From: a virus
Virus record (IMG/VR): IMGVR_UViG_3300024517_000116
Coordinates: 1-23,318 of that record
Length of the DNA stretch: 23,318 nucleotides
Reading direction: 5' to 3' (one strand)
In this document: positions 2,878-11,425 of the stretch, one piece after another
Layout of the letters: the number at the start of each line of letters is the position of its first letter
Position numbering within the stretch: the first letter of the stretch is position 1
Notes under the pieces: generated by a model
Seen by the model: the letters and a program-made list of their open reading frames with translations, nothing else
The model's database searches: none
Told to the model about the DNA's origin: nothing
Translations under genes and position numbers: made by a program

Positions 2878-3882
2878 ATGGCAGATACAAAATTTAGTGA
2901 ATTACCCGTAAAAAGCACAGCTGTTGATTTAATAGCGGATATTTTCGCGGTTGTCTCGGGTGGAGTAACAGAGCAGGTTCCAGCGAATCTTATACCTTTT
3001 ACAAAGATATTGACCGCTTCGACAAGCGTTTATATTGCGACTACCGGCAATGATACTACAGGAGATGGTTCTGTTGGCCTTCCATACTTAACGCCACATA
3101 AGGCTTATGAGCATTTACAAGACTATTTTCTAGGTGCTGGAGTTATTGCAACTATCCAGTGTGCTGCCGGTACTTATACGCATGCTTCGACTCTTATTCC
3201 TTATCACCCTCAAGGCTCACAAATAATCTTAAGTGGTGCGACTATGTTGGGTACTGTCGTTGATGGGGATTTTGTTGCAAGTGCAGCCACGACCACGACT
3301 AATCTTGAGACTAGATATGCGACAATTTTTAGAGGCAACTTTGCTGGTGCAATGATATCCTCTGGAGATTTTGGCACTGAGTTATTATTTAGATGTGAAG
3401 ATATCTTATTTGATGGCAATGCGGTGTCAACTTATGGCCTATTGATGACGAATGGCTCAAACTTCAGATGTGTCGGGATAAGCTGCATAAGTATGGTTGT
3501 TCGGGGCGTGCATATTGAAGGCGGTGGTTTAGGCGATATTAATGGTGATTCTAGTCTTAGTCATGGTGCCATTGGTTTATGGTCAGACACTAATTCAACT
3601 ATTTTAATGATTGATTGTTTTACTCCTTATAATACTGACACCGGCATTTTCTGCACTGGAGGGTCTCAATTGACTGTTTTTAATACTGTCTCAAGAGCAA
3701 ATACAAATGATGATTATGTTTCGTCTGATGTATCTTATATGCGCATAGCAAGCGGATTGGCTACAGGCCAGTTTGTCAGATGCTCAAATCGATCCTCAAT
3801 AAATGCTGCCAGTGTTGGGGGTGTTACTTATTCACCTGCTCACGCTGTGAACGGTAATAATGATTCAATAATCTACGCTTAA
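2878..3882 (+). CDS. Tail spike-like protein with predicted right-handed beta-helix
   Basis: 334 residues, starting four bases after the LamG gene. The N-terminal ~45 residues (MADTKFSELPVKSTAVDLIAD...) resemble short tail-attachment modules of phage spikes. VYIATTGNDTTGDGSVGLPYLTPHKAYEHLQDYF is the usual entry to pectate-lyase-like beta-helix proteins. From about residue 80 to 310 the sequence alternates short hydrophobic strands with Gly/Asn/Asp turns, including rung-like phrases such as ILFDGNAVSTYGLLMTNGS. This fold is used by capsule- or LPS-degrading spikes, but I cannot identify catalytic residues, so enzymatic activity is unproven. Confidence 0.7.
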   Translation: MADTKFSELPVKSTAVDLIADIFAVVSGGVTEQVPANLIPFTKILTASTSVYIATTGNDTTGDGSVGLPYLTPHKAYEHLQDYFLGAGVIATIQCAAGTYTHASTLIPYHPQGSQIILSGATMLGTVVDGDFVASAATTTTNLETRYATIFRGNFAGAMISSGDFGTELLFRCEDILFDGNAVSTYGLLMTNGSNFRCVGISCISMVVRGVHIEGGGLGDINGDSSLSHGAIGLWSDTNSTILMIDCFTPYNTDTGIFCTGGSQLTVFNTVSRANTNDDYVSSDVSYMRIASGLATGQFVRCSNRSSINAASVGGVTYSPAHAVNGNNDSIIYA

Positions 3883-3892
3883 GAGGTTTATC

Positions 3893-4147
3893 ATGCAAAT
3901 AGTTATTAAAGAAGATAAAGTATTCGCTATCCACACTAATGACCAGGATTTAGATGGTCACTATGATGGCCTAGAAGTCTTGGAAATTGATGGCGTTAAG
4001 CCGCATAAAGAAGATGGAACGCCAAAGACTAAGACTGAATTAGTCTCCGAGTCTGACGGTATGTCAAAGAAGGCTACTAAGCTTCAGAAATTAGCCAAGA
4101 TGGTAATTAATTTAAAAGCCAGAGTTGATGCATTAGAAGGCAACTAA
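3893..4147 (+). CDS. Small tail-associated protein with C-terminal coiled coil
   Basis: 84 residues with an AAGAGGTT ribosome-binding site just before the ATG. The N-terminal half is beta-like (MQIVIKEDKVFAIHTNDQDLDG...LEVLEIDGV); the C-terminal third (TKLQKLAKMVINLKARVDALEGN) is a short heptad-patterned helix. It lies directly after the spike gene and its stop overlaps the next start (TAATG). A fibre/spike accessory or chaperone-like role is possible from position only; no family recognised. Confidence 0.6.
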   Translation: MQIVIKEDKVFAIHTNDQDLDGHYDGLEVLEIDGVKPHKEDGTPKTKTELVSESDGMSKKATKLQKLAKMVINLKARVDALEGN

Positions 4148-4548
4148 TGACAGATAAGCAAATAGAAAAGTGGTTTGTAGAGCTTCCAGAGTATGAATCT
4201 TATGTAATGGCTATTGGTCATTATAATAAAGATCTTGGATATGCCGGGCCGAATAACAGTAAGGTTTTAGAGTATATAATTCCGGAAACTTTATATGGTA
4301 TTAATCTAAATCCGGCTTTTTATCAACACGATGCGAATTATTCAATAGGTGGAAACAATAAAGACCGCTGGAAATCTGATGTCACCATGGTAGCAACTGG
4401 TTTATTCATTATAGAAAACACTCCAGATAGATGGTATTTGTGGGGAGTTAATACAGCCAGGCGTCACATGGCACGAAATAGATTAGTAAAATACTTTGAG
4501 GCTGTAAGGTCACAAGGCCATAAGAGCTTTAACTTTAGTGGTAATTGA
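4147..4548 (+). CDS. HDxxY-motif protein, phospholipase A2-like
   Basis: 133 residues. The central stretch LNPAFYQHDANYSIGGNNKDRWKSD has His61-Asp62 in an HDxxY context followed by GG and an acidic residue at 78, which matches the helix-with-His-Asp signature of small PLA2-like phage proteins. The Cys pairs of secreted PLA2s are absent, as is common in phage versions. The gene sits between the tail and the membrane/lipoprotein genes, so it could act on host membranes or be a virion component. The assignment rests on this motif alone. Confidence 0.5.
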   Translation: MTDKQIEKWFVELPEYESYVMAIGHYNKDLGYAGPNNSKVLEYIIPETLYGINLNPAFYQHDANYSIGGNNKDRWKSDVTMVATGLFIIENTPDRWYLWGVNTARRHMARNRLVKYFEAVRSQGHKSFNFSGN

Positions 4549-4619
4549 ATTACAAAATTAAGATATTATTGTAAAACACCAGACTTTAAGAACTATATTA
4601 TAATAAGGCAAGAAGAAAA

Positions 4620-4958
4620 ATGAGTATAACAAATGAAGACATTAGCTTTTGGGGAAGCGCTTTGGTTATTATGGGTGTGGTGTTTTCAATTATTAAGGGC
4701 ATTGTAGTCATGAAAGAAAAAATAAGGGTTCTGGATGGGAAAATTGACTCTCACAAAGACGACACTCATAAAAAATTTGATGATATTGAGAGCGCATTTA
4801 ATGAATATAAGACCGAAATTAAAGAGGTCATAGGCGAGCTTAAGAAAGAAGTAGATAAATTAAGGGACTCAAACCAACAAGCACAGAAAGAGCTCATAAA
4901 GATCATCAATAAAAATCATATTTCTTTGCTTGAGAAAATAAGCGAGGCCAAGAAATGA
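4620..4958 (+). CDS. Membrane-anchored coiled-coil protein (inner-membrane spanin or holin candidate)
   Basis: 112 residues: one hydrophobic segment (about 10-30, FWGSALVIMGVVFSIIKGIVV) followed by a long charged helix (32-112) with heptad-like spacing (KIDSHKDDTHKKFDDIESAFNEYKTEIKEVIGELKKEVDKL). Rz-type i-spanins and some holin-associated proteins share this plan. A lipoprotein candidate for the partner o-spanin lies two genes downstream. It overlaps the following receiver gene by 4 bases (ATGA). Which lysis function it has cannot be decided from sequence alone. Confidence 0.55.
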   Translation: MSITNEDISFWGSALVIMGVVFSIIKGIVVMKEKIRVLDGKIDSHKDDTHKKFDDIESAFNEYKTEIKEVIGELKKEVDKLRDSNQQAQKELIKIINKNHISLLEKISEAKK

Positions 4959-5338
4959 TAGCTGACAAAACCTTAAATGTACTGCACTTCGAAGATGAGA
5001 AAACAAACCAGATGATCGTTAGGCATAAGCTAAAGAATAAATTTGGTGCCACAACTCAAACAGAATCTACTTTACAAAATCTCGACATCTACTTTAAGAC
5101 TCATTACATCGATCAATTTGACCTTGTTATCTGTGATTGGAATTTCCCTATTTTTAATATAGAACTTAAGCTCCCTACGCTTGCAAAGTCTGGCAAACCT
5201 ATTTTATTCTATAGTTGTATTGATGAATGCGAATGGCTAGAAAGAGTTAAAAAGGTTTTGGGAAAGATTCCCGATAACTTCACATTTAATCGAAAGGCTT
5301 GTGATGACATTATATCGACTATTAGAAATATCTTATAA
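4955..5338 (+). CDS. CheY-like response-regulator receiver domain protein
   Basis: 127 residues, the usual size of a stand-alone receiver domain. The layout fits: strand VLHF followed by the acidic pair Glu13-Asp14 (FEDE), strand FDLVICDW with Asp61 in the phospho-acceptor position, PILFYSC with Ser87 in the switch Ser/Thr position, and FTFNRKACDD with Lys114 in the conserved-lysine position. No output domain is present. It is coupled to the upstream membrane coiled-coil gene (ATGA) and overlaps the next lipoprotein gene by 35 bases. Family assignment is by motif; partner kinase and function are unknown. It may be a degenerate domain used for protein binding rather than signalling. Confidence 0.65.
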   Translation: MIADKTLNVLHFEDEKTNQMIVRHKLKNKFGATTQTESTLQNLDIYFKTHYIDQFDLVICDWNFPIFNIELKLPTLAKSGKPILFYSCIDECEWLERVKKVLGKIPDNFTFNRKACDDIISTIRNIL

Positions 5339-5519
5339 ACTTTTGTTTATATCTTTTACACTTTTGTTTATATCTTGCTCTTCAGTATTTATTTATGCGC
5401 CTAAAAATATTTGTGTGCATGGCGATGCTAAAGAAATAAAAGTTACCGGTTCGGATTTAGACGGTAACAAGCTCGATCAAAAGAGCGATGGTAATTTAAA
5501 GATCCCACTTTCACCCTAG
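5304..5519 (+). CDS. Small lipoprotein (o-spanin candidate)
   Basis: 71 residues from ATG 5304; GTG 5301 is in frame, but AAAGG at 5293-5297 is well placed for 5304. A signal peptide with hydrophobic core KLLFISFTLLFIS ends in a lipobox (LFIS-Cys25), predicting a ~47-residue lipidated mature protein (APKNICVHGDAKEIKVTGSDLDG...). The start is embedded in the receiver gene. Two-gene spanin systems pair such a short lipoprotein with a membrane coiled-coil protein like that at 4620. The two halves of the hydrophobic core are encoded by a 21-bp tandem duplication (5339-5380). Spanin role is inferred. Confidence 0.6.
   Translation: MTLYRLLEISYKLLFISFTLLFISCSSVFIYAPKNICVHGDAKEIKVTGSDLDGNKLDQKSDGNLKIPLSP
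5339..5380 (+). repeat. 21-bp tandem duplication inside lipoprotein signal peptide
   Basis: ACTTTTGTTTATATCTT occurs at 5339-5355 and again at 5360-5376, an exact 17-bp match at a 21-bp period. It encodes the repeated LLFIS block (LLFISFT / LLFISCS), so the duplication is in frame. Confidence 0.85.
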
Positions 5520-5547
5520 GCAAGCTCATTCCTTGTCTTTTCCTTGG

Positions 5548-5582
5548 CCCCCGCAGTTCTCGTCCTTCTGCGGGGGTTTTTT
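5548..5582 (+). terminator. Strong intrinsic terminator ending the tail/lysis operon
   Basis: A 9-bp perfect stem, CCCCCGCAG (5548-5556) with CTGCGGGGG (5568-5576), is followed by a T run (5577-5582). It lies between the convergent lipoprotein gene and the minus-strand recombination operon. There is no A-run on the left, so it should act only on plus-strand transcripts. Confidence 0.92.
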
Positions 5583-5584
5583 AT

Positions 5585-5929
5585 TTAGATGAAGTTTTCA
5601 GGTGGTGCCAGAAATACCGGTGCTTGTTGTTGTTGTTGCTGCGGTGCCTGTTGATACACGGGAATATTCGGCATCTCAACTGGTCGGGTTGATTGTTGCA
5701 TCGGTTGACCTTGCGGCTGCTCCTCGAAGATACTTAGCCAAACTGAGTCTTTACCTTCATGAAGTGCCTTTTGTCCCATTGCGGCTAAACTGGCACACAA
5801 AGCGGCATCCAGGATAATTGATTCACCACCTTCCGGGTATTGGTGCACCTTGCCAACCTGAACACGTGCCTTTTTAGTTTCGCCTTGCTTGTTCTGGTAT
5901 TCTCTGAGTGTTAGTAAAATCTTTTTCAT
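5585..5929 (-). CDS. Hypothetical protein of recombination operon, Q/P-rich tail
   Basis: 114 residues. The N-terminal ~75 residues look like a small beta-rich domain (KKILLTLREYQNK...ARVQVGKVHQYPEGGESIILD...DSVWLSIFEEQP). The last ~40 residues are Pro/Gln-rich with a glutamine run encoded by repeated CAA/CAG. A folded domain plus P/Q-rich tail next to a recombination exonuclease is reminiscent of phage ssDNA-binding proteins, but the terminal residues ENFI are not a clear acidic SSB tip, so this remains a guess. Last gene of the operon; overlaps the exonuclease gene by 4 bases. Confidence 0.6.
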   Translation of the reverse strand: MKKILLTLREYQNKQGETKKARVQVGKVHQYPEGGESIILDAALCASLAAMGQKALHEGKDSVWLSIFEEQPQGQPMQQSTRPVEMPNIPVYQQAPQQQQQQAPVFLAPPENFI

Positions 5930-6591
5930 GCTATTCCTTCCATTAGTTCATTTACGTATTTCTGACAAAGTTCAACTCTGTCTTTTATTTGTTGGATCTT
6001 CTTATCATCTCGCTTAACCTCAAAGCGCTTATATCTTAATTTTGTCGGCACATCGTCATAAGTATGGTATGCCTTGACTTCTTCATAAACTTCATCGATA
6101 TCACAGTTTTTTTGATACGCTAATGACTTGACTTCTCTCTCAATTAAGAAATCAGGCAAATCCATCAAAGTATAAATAACCTCTGCATTCTCTTTTCCCC
6201 AAAGATTCATATATCCTTGTAACTGCCATTCATAATCCTTATTTTTTAATTCAGTATCAAATAACGGGAATGTCGAAAACTCGAAGCTATTCTTAATATC
6301 AATAATTTTATTGGTATCGTTAATGTCACAAGTTCCTTGCATCCAGTCGTCTTGTTTAAACTCCTCATTCTTTTTATAGTTGGTTAATAATTTGGCATTT
6401 AAAAACTTAATGCTCCAGTCTTCACAGATATTTCCCTTATCCATGTATTTAGTATTTATTTCCTTGCGTCTATTGTAGAGCTGTTCAGCAAGCCATTTCT
6501 TGCAGTAAGTTTCAGCACCTTTTGATAGCTTAGGTTTATCTGCATAGGCCATAATCGAACCTATTGCAGAGCAGCGAATTTTGAATTTCAT
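5926..6591 (-). CDS. YqaJ/lambda-exonuclease-like recombination nuclease
   Basis: 221 residues with a PD-(D/E)xK nuclease core: GTCDI with Asp89, then IIDIK with Asp98 and Lys100, followed by the QxxxY-type motif Gln123-Tyr127 (EWQLQGYMNLWG) characteristic of the lambda-exo/YqaJ/RecB nuclease group. An upstream Glu57 (NICEDW) could be the additional metal ligand. The enzyme would resect linear double-stranded DNA 5'-to-3', creating single strands for RecT, whose gene is in the same operon two genes upstream. Starts and stops overlap both neighbours by 4 bases. Confidence 0.85.
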   Translation of the reverse strand: MKFKIRCSAIGSIMAYADKPKLSKGAETYCKKWLAEQLYNRRKEINTKYMDKGNICEDWSIKFLNAKLLTNYKKNEEFKQDDWMQGTCDINDTNKIIDIKNSFEFSTFPLFDTELKNKDYEWQLQGYMNLWGKENAEVIYTLMDLPDFLIEREVKSLAYQKNCDIDEVYEEVKAYHTYDDVPTKLRYKRFEVKRDDKKIQQIKDRVELCQKYVNELMEGIA

Positions 6592-6770
6592 TTTACCCCC
6601 AATGATTTTTTGATTGCATTGTCTACAATCATATTGGCGGTTCCAATTGCTTCATCTTCGATGGTTCCATATGGGTGTTCAGGGATTATACACTTGCTCA
6701 TATATGCGGTATTCAGGATGCCACTCGCAATCGAAGCCCTCAATTTTATTTCATCAGATACGCTTATCAT
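6588..6770 (-). CDS. Small hypothetical protein between RecT and exonuclease
   Basis: 60 residues, translationally coupled (4-base overlaps) to RecT upstream and the exonuclease downstream. No membrane segment, Cys pair or recognised family; mixed helix pattern (SDEIKLRASIASGILNTAYMSK...EDEAIGTANMIVDNAIKKSL). Retained as real because it is exactly fitted between two overlapping genes. Confidence 0.65.
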   Translation of the reverse strand: MISVSDEIKLRASIASGILNTAYMSKCIIPEHPYGTIEDEAIGTANMIVDNAIKKSLGVK

Positions 6771-7633
6771 TTTAACTTCCCCATTTTATCAAGGTAAGCC
6801 TCTCTTACATCCTGGTGGTCTGAGAAGCCGCTTTCCTTTACAATCTCCCATTTACTTTCCAAGTCTGCTTTATCTGCTGCGGTGGCAAAGGCTGCAATGA
6901 CATCCTCTTTAGTTGTTTTGACTTCTGGGGCTTCTTGCTCCGGCATATCGAAGCTAGAAAATTCCTTCTCATCAACTTTTTGTATTACCTGGACATCTTC
7001 AGGCGATAAAGGAAGCCACTTAGATAGACGCTTGAATACCGTTTTTTTTGCCATCTCGTCAAAGTCAGTTTTCCAAGGGCCGAAATTTCCCGCTTTGGAT
7101 CTGGCTTTAATTTTATTCACTTCGTCAAGAGTCATTACTTCAGCTTTTCTGCTGCCGTCTTTAAACTCAACTTGAGCATAATAGGCATAAGCAACACCGC
7201 GATCTTCTTTAAAGTTTGGCCGGTGAGCTTCAACTTTTCCGGCATTGTAGACAAACTCATCATTATCACAAATTTTATCACTGTGAATATTCGCGATTTT
7301 TCCAGAACGCATTGCTAATTCAATCAAGCCTTTATAGTCAATAATCAACTGACAATCAACTCTGTTCTCTTTCCGGTTATTAAATGGCAAAAGGTGAGCC
7401 CGGCGGCCATCTGGTTCAATGCCAAGCTGTGCACAATCCAAAAGACAGGCAATAAAACTATCTCTATCACACTCTAAAAGCTTAGGTGTCTTGGTCATCG
7501 CAGTCATTGATATTCTCAAGAATCTATCAGGCGTGCAGATTGACGGCAAGGCTTTTGCTATCTGCTCTTTTACGGCATCACCAGAGATAAAAGTTCTTAG
7601 GTCGGTGCTATTCTTTTTAATTTCAGTGCTCAT
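6767..7633 (-). CDS. recT: RecT-family single-strand annealing recombinase
   Basis: 288 residues, close to the usual RecT length. Recognisable RecT blocks include LLDCAQLGIEPDGRRAHLLPF, CQLIIDYKGLIELAMRSGKIANIHSDKICDNDEF, and DEMAKKTVFKRLSKWLP. RecT binds the single strands made by its partner exonuclease and anneals complementary DNA; the partner (YqaJ-like) is in the same operon. The C-terminal ~60 residues are acidic and less conserved. Start overlaps the upstream membrane-peptide gene by ATGA. Confidence 0.93.
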   Translation of the reverse strand: MSTEIKKNSTDLRTFISGDAVKEQIAKALPSICTPDRFLRISMTAMTKTPKLLECDRDSFIACLLDCAQLGIEPDGRRAHLLPFNNRKENRVDCQLIIDYKGLIELAMRSGKIANIHSDKICDNDEFVYNAGKVEAHRPNFKEDRGVAYAYYAQVEFKDGSRKAEVMTLDEVNKIKARSKAGNFGPWKTDFDEMAKKTVFKRLSKWLPLSPEDVQVIQKVDEKEFSSFDMPEQEAPEVKTTKEDVIAAFATAADKADLESKWEIVKESGFSDHQDVREAYLDKMGKLK

Positions 7634-7797: not shown

Positions 7798-7946
7798 TTT
7801 TTCTCATCCTTATACATGTTTGGGTATTCTTTCTTCAGTAGGTCTGTAATCTGTCGGGAAATTGGAACACCTTTAAACTTCTTGGCATCCTTCATAACCT
7901 TATGATCATAAATTTTAATCTTTATTGTGGCATAGTCTTTGTTCAT
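7794..7946 (-). CDS. Ribbon-helix-helix-like DNA-binding protein, first gene of recombination operon
   Basis: 50 residues: a short basic strand (YATIKIKIYD) then two helices with the turn PISRQITDLLKKEYP, the layout of Arc/MetJ/CopG-type RHH proteins, which dimerise and insert the N-terminal strand into DNA. It is the promoter-proximal gene of the minus-strand operon, immediately downstream of the divergent control region carrying repeated AAGGTGTA elements. Autoregulation and control of the opposite early operon is the simplest reading. The RHH call is moderately sure; binding is inferred. Confidence 0.65.
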   Translation of the reverse strand: MNKDYATIKIKIYDHKVMKDAKKFKGVPISRQITDLLKKEYPNMYKDEKK

Positions 7947-7973
7947 CACTTTCCTTTATTTGTCATTAACTTC

Positions 7974-8000
7974 TACACCTTCAATATAACTAAAGGTGTA
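7974..8000. repeat. Operator-like inverted repeat TACACCTT / AAGGTGTA
   Basis: TACACCTT at 7974-7981 and its reverse complement AAGGTGTA at 7993-8000 flank and overlap the -10 region of the minus-strand promoter. A third copy, AAGGTGTA, lies at 8066-8073 in the plus-strand promoter. The extended element AAAGGTGTAAT is identical at 7992-8002 and 8065-8075. Confidence 0.75.
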
Positions 8001-8011
8001 ATCAAATACAA
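7983..8011 (-). promoter_or_regulatory. Promoter of recombination operon
   Basis: On the minus strand, TTGTAT (8006-8011) and TATATT (7983-7988) are separated by exactly 17 bp. The spacer contains the 11-bp element AAAGGTGTAAT (plus-strand reading, 7992-8002). The predicted transcript starts about 30 bases before the RHH start codon at 7946. Confidence 0.7.
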
Positions 8012-8061
8012 GGGTTTAGTATACGATTTAATTAAATTTGTGTATAAATGTGTAATTCATC

Positions 8062-8090
8062 TTGAAAGGTGTAATAAACGGTATTATCAT
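8062..8090 (+). promoter_or_regulatory. Promoter of early plus-strand operon
   Basis: TTGAAA (8062-8067), 17-bp spacer, TATCAT (8085-8090). The AAAGGTGTAAT element (8065-8075) overlaps the -35 end and spacer, so a protein bound there would block RNA polymerase. The first start codon is at 8123, preceded by AGGAAGGA. Confidence 0.65.
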
Positions 8091-9551: not shown

Positions 9552-10088
9552 ATGGAACCGAAGAATCAAGAAAAATTAATATTCAACAATACTTGTGGGT
9601 GCTTATTTGAAGCAGCCGTTTTGGAGAGAGCCATGTTATGGTGGTCTAGTGGGCGTGTTCTTATGAAAAATAGGAAAATATACATGCATGGAAACTATCC
9701 AGCTGTAAGTATTTTCGATGAAAAGCTCCATATACATAGGTTGATATATTGCTATAAAAACAGAAAGAAATTATTAAGATCAATTCATGTCCATCATAAA
9801 GATGATAATAAACTAAATACCTTAACTGATAATCTTGAGGAGATTAAAGATTCTATTCATATGTCACATCATAACAAAGGAAAGGTTTTATCTAAAGATC
9901 ATAAGGATAAAATAAGTCTGGCGAATAGAAGAAGAAAAGGCATTAAAATGAAGAGTAAATACCCGATGCCAGATCTTGCTGATTATGTAAATCAAGGTTT
10001 ATCAATTAGTGCAATTTCTAAAATATATGGGTGTAGTTGGGACACTGTTAAAAATAGGATCCACGAAACTCCGGAGCTATTAAAATGA
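9552..10088 (+). CDS. HNH endonuclease (probable free-standing homing endonuclease)
   Basis: 178 residues from ATG 9552, chosen because AAGGAT lies 5-6 bases upstream; GTG 9519 is in frame. The HNH core is visible: IHRLIYCYKNRK (His62), then VHHKDDNKLNTLTDNLEEI (His81-His82, Asp84, Asn94) and HMSHHN (His103-His107). The C-terminal part (about 141-171, LADYVNQGLSISAISKIYGCSWDTVKNRI) looks like a helix-turn-helix DNA-recognition module. This is the plan of phage HNH homing enzymes. Unlike its neighbours it does not overlap the gene upstream, consistent with insertion into the operon. Confidence 0.85.
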   Translation: MEPKNQEKLIFNNTCGCLFEAAVLERAMLWWSSGRVLMKNRKIYMHGNYPAVSIFDEKLHIHRLIYCYKNRKKLLRSIHVHHKDDNKLNTLTDNLEEIKDSIHMSHHNKGKVLSKDHKDKISLANRRRKGIKMKSKYPMPDLADYVNQGLSISAISKIYGCSWDTVKNRIHETPELLK

Positions 10089-10339
10089 GCGATAAACTAA
10101 GACGTTCGGAACTTAAAGAAGGCATGCAAAGAGAGTTGCTAAACCTTAATACTAAACTGCTTAAATCAGAAAGTAGCAACAAAGATAAGGACTCAGAGAT
10201 AGAAAGGCTTAGATGCAATCTATGGGAAGTTGAAGCAGCACTAGACTTAAAGAATAGAACTGGCTTCATGGATGTATTTCTACCGGTAACAGTAGCCGCA
10301 CTATTCTTCTTTGTTGGAATGCATTATGGCTCTATATAG
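10085..10339 (+). CDS. Tail-anchored coiled-coil membrane protein
   Basis: 84 residues: a charged helix with heptad-like pattern (about 7-54, SELKEGMQRELLNLNTKLLKSES...DSEIERLRCNLWEVEAAL) followed by one C-terminal hydrophobic segment (61-79, FMDVFLPVTVAALFFFVGM). Start overlaps the HNH stop (ATGA). Function unknown. Confidence 0.65.
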   Translation: MSDKLRRSELKEGMQRELLNLNTKLLKSESSNKDKDSEIERLRCNLWEVEAALDLKNRTGFMDVFLPVTVAALFFFVGMHYGSI

Positions 10340-10523: not shown

Positions 10524-10639
10524 GTAACCCAAAAATAGCGCAGTGCTGTATATGTGGGCATTCGTGGGAACGCGAAATGAATGGATTTCACAGCTGTTCA
10601 AAAATACTTCAACAGAAAGTCGAGCGTCTCGAAAAGGCT
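10505..10639 (+). repeat. Duplicated gene segment, copy A
   Basis: Two blocks are exactly shared with copy B (11439-11588): a 21-base block covering the ribosome-binding site and start codon (10505-10525 versus 11439-11459), and a 25-base block encoding KVERLEKA (10615-10639 versus 11564-11588). Confidence 0.85.
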
Positions 10640-10777
10640 TTGTGGGATGAAAGATATGGATGGTCTATGTGTACGCCTAAAGAGATGGAAAAATATTTGA
10701 ACGATCTTTACGCCGGAAAGTATGACGAATACTTAGACAAGGAACTCGCAGAATGTAAAAGGCAATGGGAAGGATGA
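10520..10777 (+). CDS. Small zinc-ribbon-like protein, paralogue of 11454-11723
   Basis: 85 residues. N-terminal Cys9-x2-Cys12 (QCCICGHSW) with His24-x-Cys26 could bind zinc. The C-terminal half (KVERLEKALWDERYG...YLNDLYAGKYDEYLDKELAECKRQWE) is clearly related to the protein at 11454-11723, and the DNA before both start codons and at the VERLEKA segment is identical. Function unknown; may be dimeric through the KVERLEKA helix. Confidence 0.7.
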   Translation: MSNPKIAQCCICGHSWEREMNGFHSCSKILQQKVERLEKALWDERYGWSMCTPKEMEKYLNDLYAGKYDEYLDKELAECKRQWEG

Positions 10778-10977
10778 AAATTGAAGAAGTAAATATCAAA
10801 TTGTCTCTTACTCCAAGAGAGGTTTATTTAATATCTTATTGCATAGATGAGCTACTAAATATCACTGATGAGTTAGATCTTAAAAGAGGCTTTGATGATG
10901 GCAAGCAAAAAGATTGTGAGAGACTTAGTCTGGAGATGGTAAAATTATTGACGACAATAAAAGGGGAAGAATCATGA
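10774..10977 (+). CDS. Hypothetical early protein
   Basis: 67 residues from ATG 10774, which overlaps the preceding stop by ATGA and has AAGG upstream. Predicted mostly helical (TPREVYLISYCIDELLNITDELDLKRGFDDGKQKDCERLSLEMVKLLTTI). No family recognised. Confidence 0.65.
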   Translation: MKIEEVNIKLSLTPREVYLISYCIDELLNITDELDLKRGFDDGKQKDCERLSLEMVKLLTTIKGEES

Positions 10978-11225
10978 GTGAAGAAATTAAGAAATGCGAA
11001 TGTGGGTACTTCCATATTTACAAAAAATCTTGGGTTCCTTTTGCTAATCCAAAGCCTCTACAATATTTATATAGAGATATATTTTGTGAGGCTTGGGTAA
11101 ATAGATCTTTTTTAGATGAAAGACATGCAAGATTATTTTCAACCAAGACAGTCGCAACAGGAAAGTTCTTTTGGGCAGGCGAATACTGCGATAAGATTGA
11201 GAACATATGCCAACTAAAGGATTAA
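10974..11225 (+). CDS. Hypothetical early protein with N-terminal Cys motif
   Basis: 83 residues. Cys8-x-Cys10 (KCECGYFHIY) near the N-terminus and Cys residues at the C-terminus (EYCDKIENIC) hint at metal binding. Rich in aromatic residues. Overlaps its upstream neighbour by ATGA. No family recognised. Confidence 0.65.
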   Translation: MSEEIKKCECGYFHIYKKSWVPFANPKPLQYLYRDIFCEAWVNRSFLDERHARLFSTKTVATGKFFWAGEYCDKIENICQLKD

Positions 11226-11239
11226 AAAAAGGAAGAGTC

Positions 11240-11425
11240 ATGAGCAAAGAAATTAAGAATATGGAAGACTACGAGTTTTTAGATATGGTCAAAGAGGAGA
11301 TTGAGAGAAGAATTCTAGAGCATGACACTTTCTGTATATCTAGTGATGATTTAGCGTGTCAAGACTATGAAACACGAGCGATAATAAACATTATATCTAT
11401 ACATAAAATATTACTTGAAAACTAG
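11240..11425 (+). CDS. Small hypothetical protein
   Basis: 61 residues from ATG 11240, preceded by AAAGGAAGAG; an in-frame ATG at 11207 would overlap the upstream gene without a good ribosome-binding site. Acidic, helical (NMEDYEFLDMVKEEIERRILEHD) with two cysteines. No family recognised. Confidence 0.6.
   Translation: MSKEIKNMEDYEFLDMVKEEIERRILEHDTFCISSDDLACQDYETRAIINIISIHKILLEN

Follow-up and report, generated by a model that had tools for sequence, protein, structure and literature searches.

A putative stand-alone receiver gene overlapping a membrane coiled-coil gene within a phage lysis-like region, and coil-receiver pairs in Alteromonas phages

The window analysed here, a 23.3-kb linear virus record (IMGVR_UViG_3300024517_000116, 23,318 nucleotides), encodes at 4955..5338 on the + strand a predicted 127-residue CheY-like receiver that has no output domain and lies among lysis-type genes. 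Judged on its sequence, the product is a very diverged stand-alone receiver, with a resemblance to known receivers that goes beyond chance. Stand-alone receivers coupled to membrane coil genes also recur in Alteromonas phages, and the coil-receiver pairing across unrelated marine phages suggests that some phages may tie lysis to host phosphorylation signalling.

The features that singled out this open reading frame in the original prediction were all confirmed in the sequence. These are the acidic pair Glu13-Asp14 of the Mg2+ site (codons 4991..4996, +), the predicted phosphorylation site Asp61 (5135..5137, +; located in a CDWNFP motif that aligns with DWNMP of CheY), Ser87 (5213..5215, +) and Lys114 (5294..5296, +), the probable conserved lysine ending β5. 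The gene overlaps both of its neighbours: the upstream membrane coiled-coil ORF (4620-4958) by the 4 nt ATGA, and the downstream lipoprotein ORF (ATG 5304 or GTG 5301, to 5519) by 35-38 nt. A homologue, P0002 (140 aa, 43-44% identical), is encoded in IMGVR_UViG_3300023223_000553 (G002). It keeps E13, D14, D61, F64-P65, R113 and K114, with Thr replacing Ser87; its phospho-site motif reads CDYMFP, and the RKA around the lysine is kept. The homologue hence retains the active-site order, including the Asp14, Asp61 and Lys114 on which the receiver assignment had been made to depend, with the Lys alignment less sure than the rest.

The proposed search against receiver family models gave a divided answer. 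PF00072 matches the window protein with E=0.14 (12.8 bits) and P0002 with E=0.013 (16.1 bits), both under the Pfam curated cut-off of 30.2 bits, whereas the NCBIfam CheY model PRK10610 matches the window protein with E=1.7e-4. P0002 matches NCBIfam response regulators in its own right. The PDB CheY entry 2chy matches the window protein with E=0.0025, the similarity lying mainly in the N-terminal half (residues 3-78). Comparison by hhalign of a two-sequence profile with six cellular receivers yielded a probability of 96% and a score of 55.6, the highest score among 200 column shuffles being 20.4; the best PDB matches of this profile include hybrid-kinase receivers (SLN1). The best PHROG matches of the window receiver are families 731, 5982 and 20458 (E 0.008-0.015), and bona fide phage receivers match the same families strongly.

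Structure prediction and fold search gave mixed results. The AlphaFold models were built from two sequences only and are of low confidence (pLDDT 53-54); their elements follow one another as in a receiver except for the early strands, since the first model leaves β1/β2 unresolved and the second β2. Foldseek searches with both low-confidence models nonetheless returned receivers for nearly all of the top 50 matches, with TM-scores of about 0.3. Given the poor models (pLDDT 54), the case for a receiver fold comes mainly from the sequence. A small Rossmann-like or other α/β protein with a chance resemblance to receiver motifs would also account for PF00072 scores below the cut-off in both homologues, as well as for the low-confidence models and TM-scores near 0.3. 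The shuffle-controlled hhalign result, the NCBIfam CheY match and the predominance of receivers in the Foldseek top 50 argue against such a protein, making this the least probable of the readings considered here.

The least certain active-site residue is Lys114. The hhalign alignment ends at residue 111 and sets the VVKPF motif of CheY against residues 105-109, a stretch in which the window protein has Asp. Predicted β5 spans 109-113 in the window protein and 117-121 in P0002, just ahead of the Lys, and this position together with its conservation makes Lys114 the probable counterpart of the conserved lysine. The window receiver is probably phosphorylatable at the Asp. It resembles E. coli CheY and other single-domain response regulators in the order and identity of the active-site residues, in length and in its best database matches. 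It differs from E. coli CheY in sequence (about 20-25% identity), a shorter α3, a longer α4-β5 linker, and in lacking both an Asp-Gly after the phospho-site motif and a Pro after the conserved Lys. Divergent receiver-like domains in phages also include the cRec (cyclic-phosphate-processing receiver) domains of jumbo phages, which have been linked to NAD/ADP-ribose enzymes (PMC7824862). This candidate was set aside, as no cRec Pfam match was reported and no NAD/ADPr genes were identified beside the receiver, whose neighbours are lysis and recombination genes.

Using the whole receiver and its C-terminal half as queries, only two phage lineages were found in IMG/VR, one of them a near-identical copy of the window phage, and no homologue was found in 84,980 GTDB species. 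INPHARED likewise contained no match. When 50 phage records that share recT or terL were scanned using the A1 profile, a homologue was identified in G002 only; the PF00072 scan of phage contigs was insensitive and missed the G002 copy. When the coil gene (4620-4958) was used as query only its own phage was recovered, while a TerL search yielded two short contigs, both without the receiver region.

The near-identical sister record, IMGVR_UViG_3300024518_002971 (G001, 30 kb), is 100% identical in DNA across window positions 3801-6000 and reaches further, into lambda-like tail genes. This extension makes the receiver region the 3'-terminal part of a late operon. The gene order in the window runs from tail genes through the PLA2-like, membrane coil, receiver and lipoprotein genes to a hairpin and the convergent recombination genes. 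A LamG-domain tail protein is encoded upstream at 1300-2874, with further tail-type genes between it and the PLA2-like gene. The terminator-like hairpin (5555..5578, +) lies at the late-operon end between the convergent operons; it is a consensus match, of which 3 were found compared to 1.3 expected by chance. The convergent recombination operon (5926..7633, - strand) encodes a RecE/YqaJ-like exonuclease (5926-6591) and RecT (6767-7633). Elsewhere, the sister contains a GIY-YIG endonuclease ORF (L090:4803-5270) in a stretch of ~690 b that corresponds to ~250 b at window 7835-8085, probably reflecting presence or absence of a mobile endonuclease. The sister also carries, on the opposite strand between tail genes, a GspG-like pseudopilin ORF (N-terminal FTLIEVLFVILILITLIGIS; L089:9679-10152, - strand); such a gene is unexpected in phages and may hint at the host. 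Outside the lysis region, window 10085-10339 encodes another short coil protein, XhlA-like in having its transmembrane segment at the C terminus.

Upstream of the coil gene lies the gene for a 133-residue phospholipase A2-like (PLA2-like) protein (4147..4548, +), a probable lysis gene from its inferred function. Its YxGPxN and HDxxY motifs are kept in four homologues, and the distant G002 copy weakly matches PF09056 prokaryotic PLA2 (E=0.03). The membrane coiled-coil protein (4620..4958, +; 112 aa) has an N-terminal TM segment at residues 13-31 and appears to be a holin/XhlA-like lysis protein; its syntenic counterpart in the cassette relative L099 matches the PHROG holin family phrog_1296 (E 8e-6). 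Like the XhlA-type haemolysin of PBSX lysis it is a short coil with one TM helix in a lysis region; unlike that type, it carries the TM segment at the N terminus. The window coil itself matches a PHROG Rz-like spanin (E 6.5e-4), which is typical coiled-coil cross-matching. Downstream, the small lipoprotein (5304..5519, +; 71 aa, LLFISC lipobox) has an AAAGG preceding ATG 5304 and an alternative start at GTG 5301. Its possible relatives in L099 (40% identity) and G002 (20%) are weakly alike and share the Cys and a GSD...P..P motif. No endolysin was recognised within the window.

The description of the neighbours as lysis-like is supported by the PLA2-like gene, the coil with its holin-PHROG relative and the lipoprotein, while the suggestion that the receiver sits between spanin-like genes is doubtful. 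Hydropathy and the charge following the TM segment (positive-inside rule) predict that coils with an N-terminal TM segment are cytoplasmic. The cytoplasm is the compartment of the receiver, and the coil of an Rz i-spanin is periplasmic. A two-component spanin pair enclosing the receiver was therefore rejected, the 4620-4958 coil being predicted cytoplasmic; the lipoprotein alone could be a putative o-spanin.

The cassette relatives L099 and L100 have PLA2-like genes ~70% identical to that of the window at the same place, and neither cassette contains the receiver gene. The slot is occupied by an unrelated 64-aa ORF in L099 and by no gene in L100. The receiver is thus an accessory gene there, with lysis not needing it. 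Two unrelated features were seen in these relatives: the coiled-coil gene of L100 (L100:6482-6802) has ACG at the position of the ATG start in its L099 relative, and L099 encodes a repetitive NTGDRNTGY protein (10617-11363, - strand) whose repeats are also spanned by another long open frame. In G002, the P0002 gene follows that of a 1509-aa protein at ~16 kb, while the PLA2-lipoprotein set lies at ~42 kb, ~26 kb away. Hence the receiver is not conserved as a cassette part, and the same gene order was not recovered in L099, L100 or G002. What the window phage and G002 have in common is that the receiver gene closes a late operon opposite the recT operon, the neighbour common to both receiver-carrying phages.

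This distribution bears on the main rival explanation, according to which the receiver is a decoy or phosphate sink: late in infection, a free receiver would drain or block host histidine kinases or HPt proteins and thereby silence one of the host's stress, envelope or motility pathways, and its place beside lysis genes would be an accessory insertion site. The location of both family members at the late-operon 3' end facing the recT operon, the distance of the G002 copy from lysis genes and the variable content of the slot in L099 and L100 all fit this explanation. So do the lack of an output domain, the lack of any phage kinase or HPt found on the contigs and the hybrid-kinase receivers among the best PDB matches; furthermore, PIT4 is a precedent for a phage protein acting on host kinases (PMC10714779). 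A decoy leaves unexplained why receiver genes are paired by few-nucleotide overlaps with membrane coil genes in unrelated phages, and why a late rather than an early gene would be chosen. We regard it as possible but doubtful.

The pairing with coil genes was found in a set of Alteromonas phages, the first of which, R8W, was reached by a search with CheY. R8W encodes a class II holin, a 98-aa TM-coil, a stand-alone 153-aa receiver joined to the coil gene by an ATGA overlap, and an overlapping membrane protein gene; H4/4 has the same layout. In R9Y1-3, the genes for TM-coil, receiver and lysozyme are each joined by a 4-nt overlap (R9Y1 read whole). XX1924 and PB15 have an XhlA-like coil and a receiver, next in PB15 an endolysin (phrog_894, E 1.6e-31), and then a holin; the XX1924 coil matches PHROG hemolysin (E 1.2e-12) and its holin phrog_3427 (E 2.3e-39). 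In PT11-V19 and R22Y the TM-coil gene overlaps the receiver gene by 11 nt. V22 and A5 combine a weakly hydrophobic coil gene, a receiver and an overlapping Rz-like spanin gene (phrog_4297, E 7e-6 and 2.9e-8, respectively), with an annotated endolysin two genes further on in A5. That such a placement lacks precedent, as the original prediction implied, is not supported, given these receivers adjoining holin, XhlA-like, endolysin or Rz-spanin genes. Two further matches were not included: that in Pseudomonas phage Komp_PAO1_1 is antisense to an annotated gene, and Stenotrophomonas phage Bhz63 is a different case, in which a full-length PhoP-like regulator gene precedes one annotated as kinase-like. 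Receiver matches in the 'phages' collection came mostly from unannotated or metagenomic records and were left out, many of them probably being host DNA.

By a rule requiring 80-140 aa, one hydrophobic segment and a charged helix-like remainder, a TM-coil gene lies directly upstream of the receiver in 5/7 receiver-carrying phage lineages, compared to 3/694 adjacent gene pairs in 78 phage loci; V22/A5 and G002 fail the rule. The associated binomial value of about 3e-11 should not be taken literally, as the rule was fixed after seeing examples and the control loci surround recT, a setting in which lysis genes are under-represented. The window receiver displays no specific kinship to the Alteromonas phage receivers (hhalign 21%, compared to 96% for cellular receivers), and is apparently a new diverged variant acquired independently in an unrelated phage.

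The pseudo-receivers of PT11-V19 (L111:3998-4450) and R22Y (L114:3001-3465) no longer have the phospho-acceptor Asp or the conserved Lys, yet keep the coil partner. A phosphorylation-independent adaptor, with the receiver fold serving to bind the coil or a host protein, would explain these cases, and is in line with the strong divergence of the window protein and with its missing Asp-Gly and Pro. It is difficult to reconcile with the conservation of E13, D14, D61, S/T87 and K114 at 43-44% identity, and appears unlikely.

Several of these genes have published assignments. The passages concerned describe V22 gp30 and A5 gp11 as CheY-like class II auxiliary metabolic genes of a 'host recognition module' (PMC7289586, PMC10579305), and R8W g48 as 'PhoB', for adaptation to low phosphate (PMC8228385). 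Those passages of the three papers contain no link between the CheY-like or PhoB genes and lysis, and a literature search joining CheY, phage, holin and lysis timing found no paper. V22 gp31 (L115:5168-5578) and A5 gp12 (L116:6031-6507), presented there as unknown genes of the shared module (PMC7289586, PMC10579305), match Rz-like spanins, indicating that the host recognition module includes lysis genes. V22 and A5 resemble the window in having a stand-alone receiver after the tail-fibre region, preceded by a short hydrophobic or coil gene and followed by a lysis gene. They differ in that their receivers are canonical and strong in PF00072 (A5 E=4.8e-17), the window protein being far more diverged, and in having endolysin and Rz where the window cassette has the PLA2-like gene and lipoprotein. 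R8W shares with the window the TM-coil gene, ATGA overlap, stand-alone receiver and membrane-bound next gene, with a class II holin upstream in R8W; its receiver is canonical, and is labelled 'PhoB' despite having no DNA-binding domain.

The published annotations, and CheY as best sequence match, would suit an auxiliary role in regulating the motility, chemotaxis or phosphate response of the host. The similarity to CheY is confined mainly to the N-terminal half, and the window receiver, as with the 153-aa R8W g48, has no DNA-binding domain and so is not a PhoB-type transcription factor. We consider this role very unlikely.

Our tentatively preferred reading is a phosphorylatable adaptor on a membrane-anchored cytoplasmic coil that tunes lysis to host state. 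The receiver would be a late product, encoded on the transcript that also carries the lysis-type genes, with its translation coupled to that of the membrane-anchored coil protein facing the cytoplasm. Neither HATPase nor HPt was found on the available contigs, which are fragments; the phosphate would thus have to be supplied by the host or by acetyl phosphate, with host histidine kinases, HPt proteins or acetyl phosphate setting Asp61 phosphorylation. The phospho-state may then alter docking of the receiver on its holin/XhlA-like coil partner, such that the timing or extent of lysis would follow host state. The computed support consists of the receiver-type sequence, active-site residues kept in two phages, the ATGA coupling, the lysis-type neighbours and the recurrence of coil-receiver pairs. 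Points against this adaptor are the ~26 kb between P0002 and the G002 lysis genes, the absence of the receiver from L099 and L100, the lost phospho-Asp in PT11-V19 and R22Y, and the lack of specific kinship with the Alteromonas phage receivers. The sensing or hijacking of a host phosphorelay by the window receiver, as first proposed, is plausible. Somewhat less probable than the adaptor itself is its extension to a general phage module, in which a coupled receiver and membrane-anchored cytoplasmic coil, repeatedly acquired by unrelated marine phages, would make lysis timing respond to the host phosphorelay, the window version being diverged and independently acquired.

CheY-like phage proteins are already known; what is new and of more interest is the recurring coil-receiver unit inside lysis regions. 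The idea is testable in cultured Alteromonas phages, e.g. R8W, R9Y1, V22 and A5. The timing of lysis is commonly ascribed to a clock within the holin itself. If the proposal is true, the published 'CheY-like auxiliary genes' would acquire a function other than their assigned motility or phosphate roles, and the membrane coil and receiver unit would provide a direct route from host physiology to the moment of lysis.
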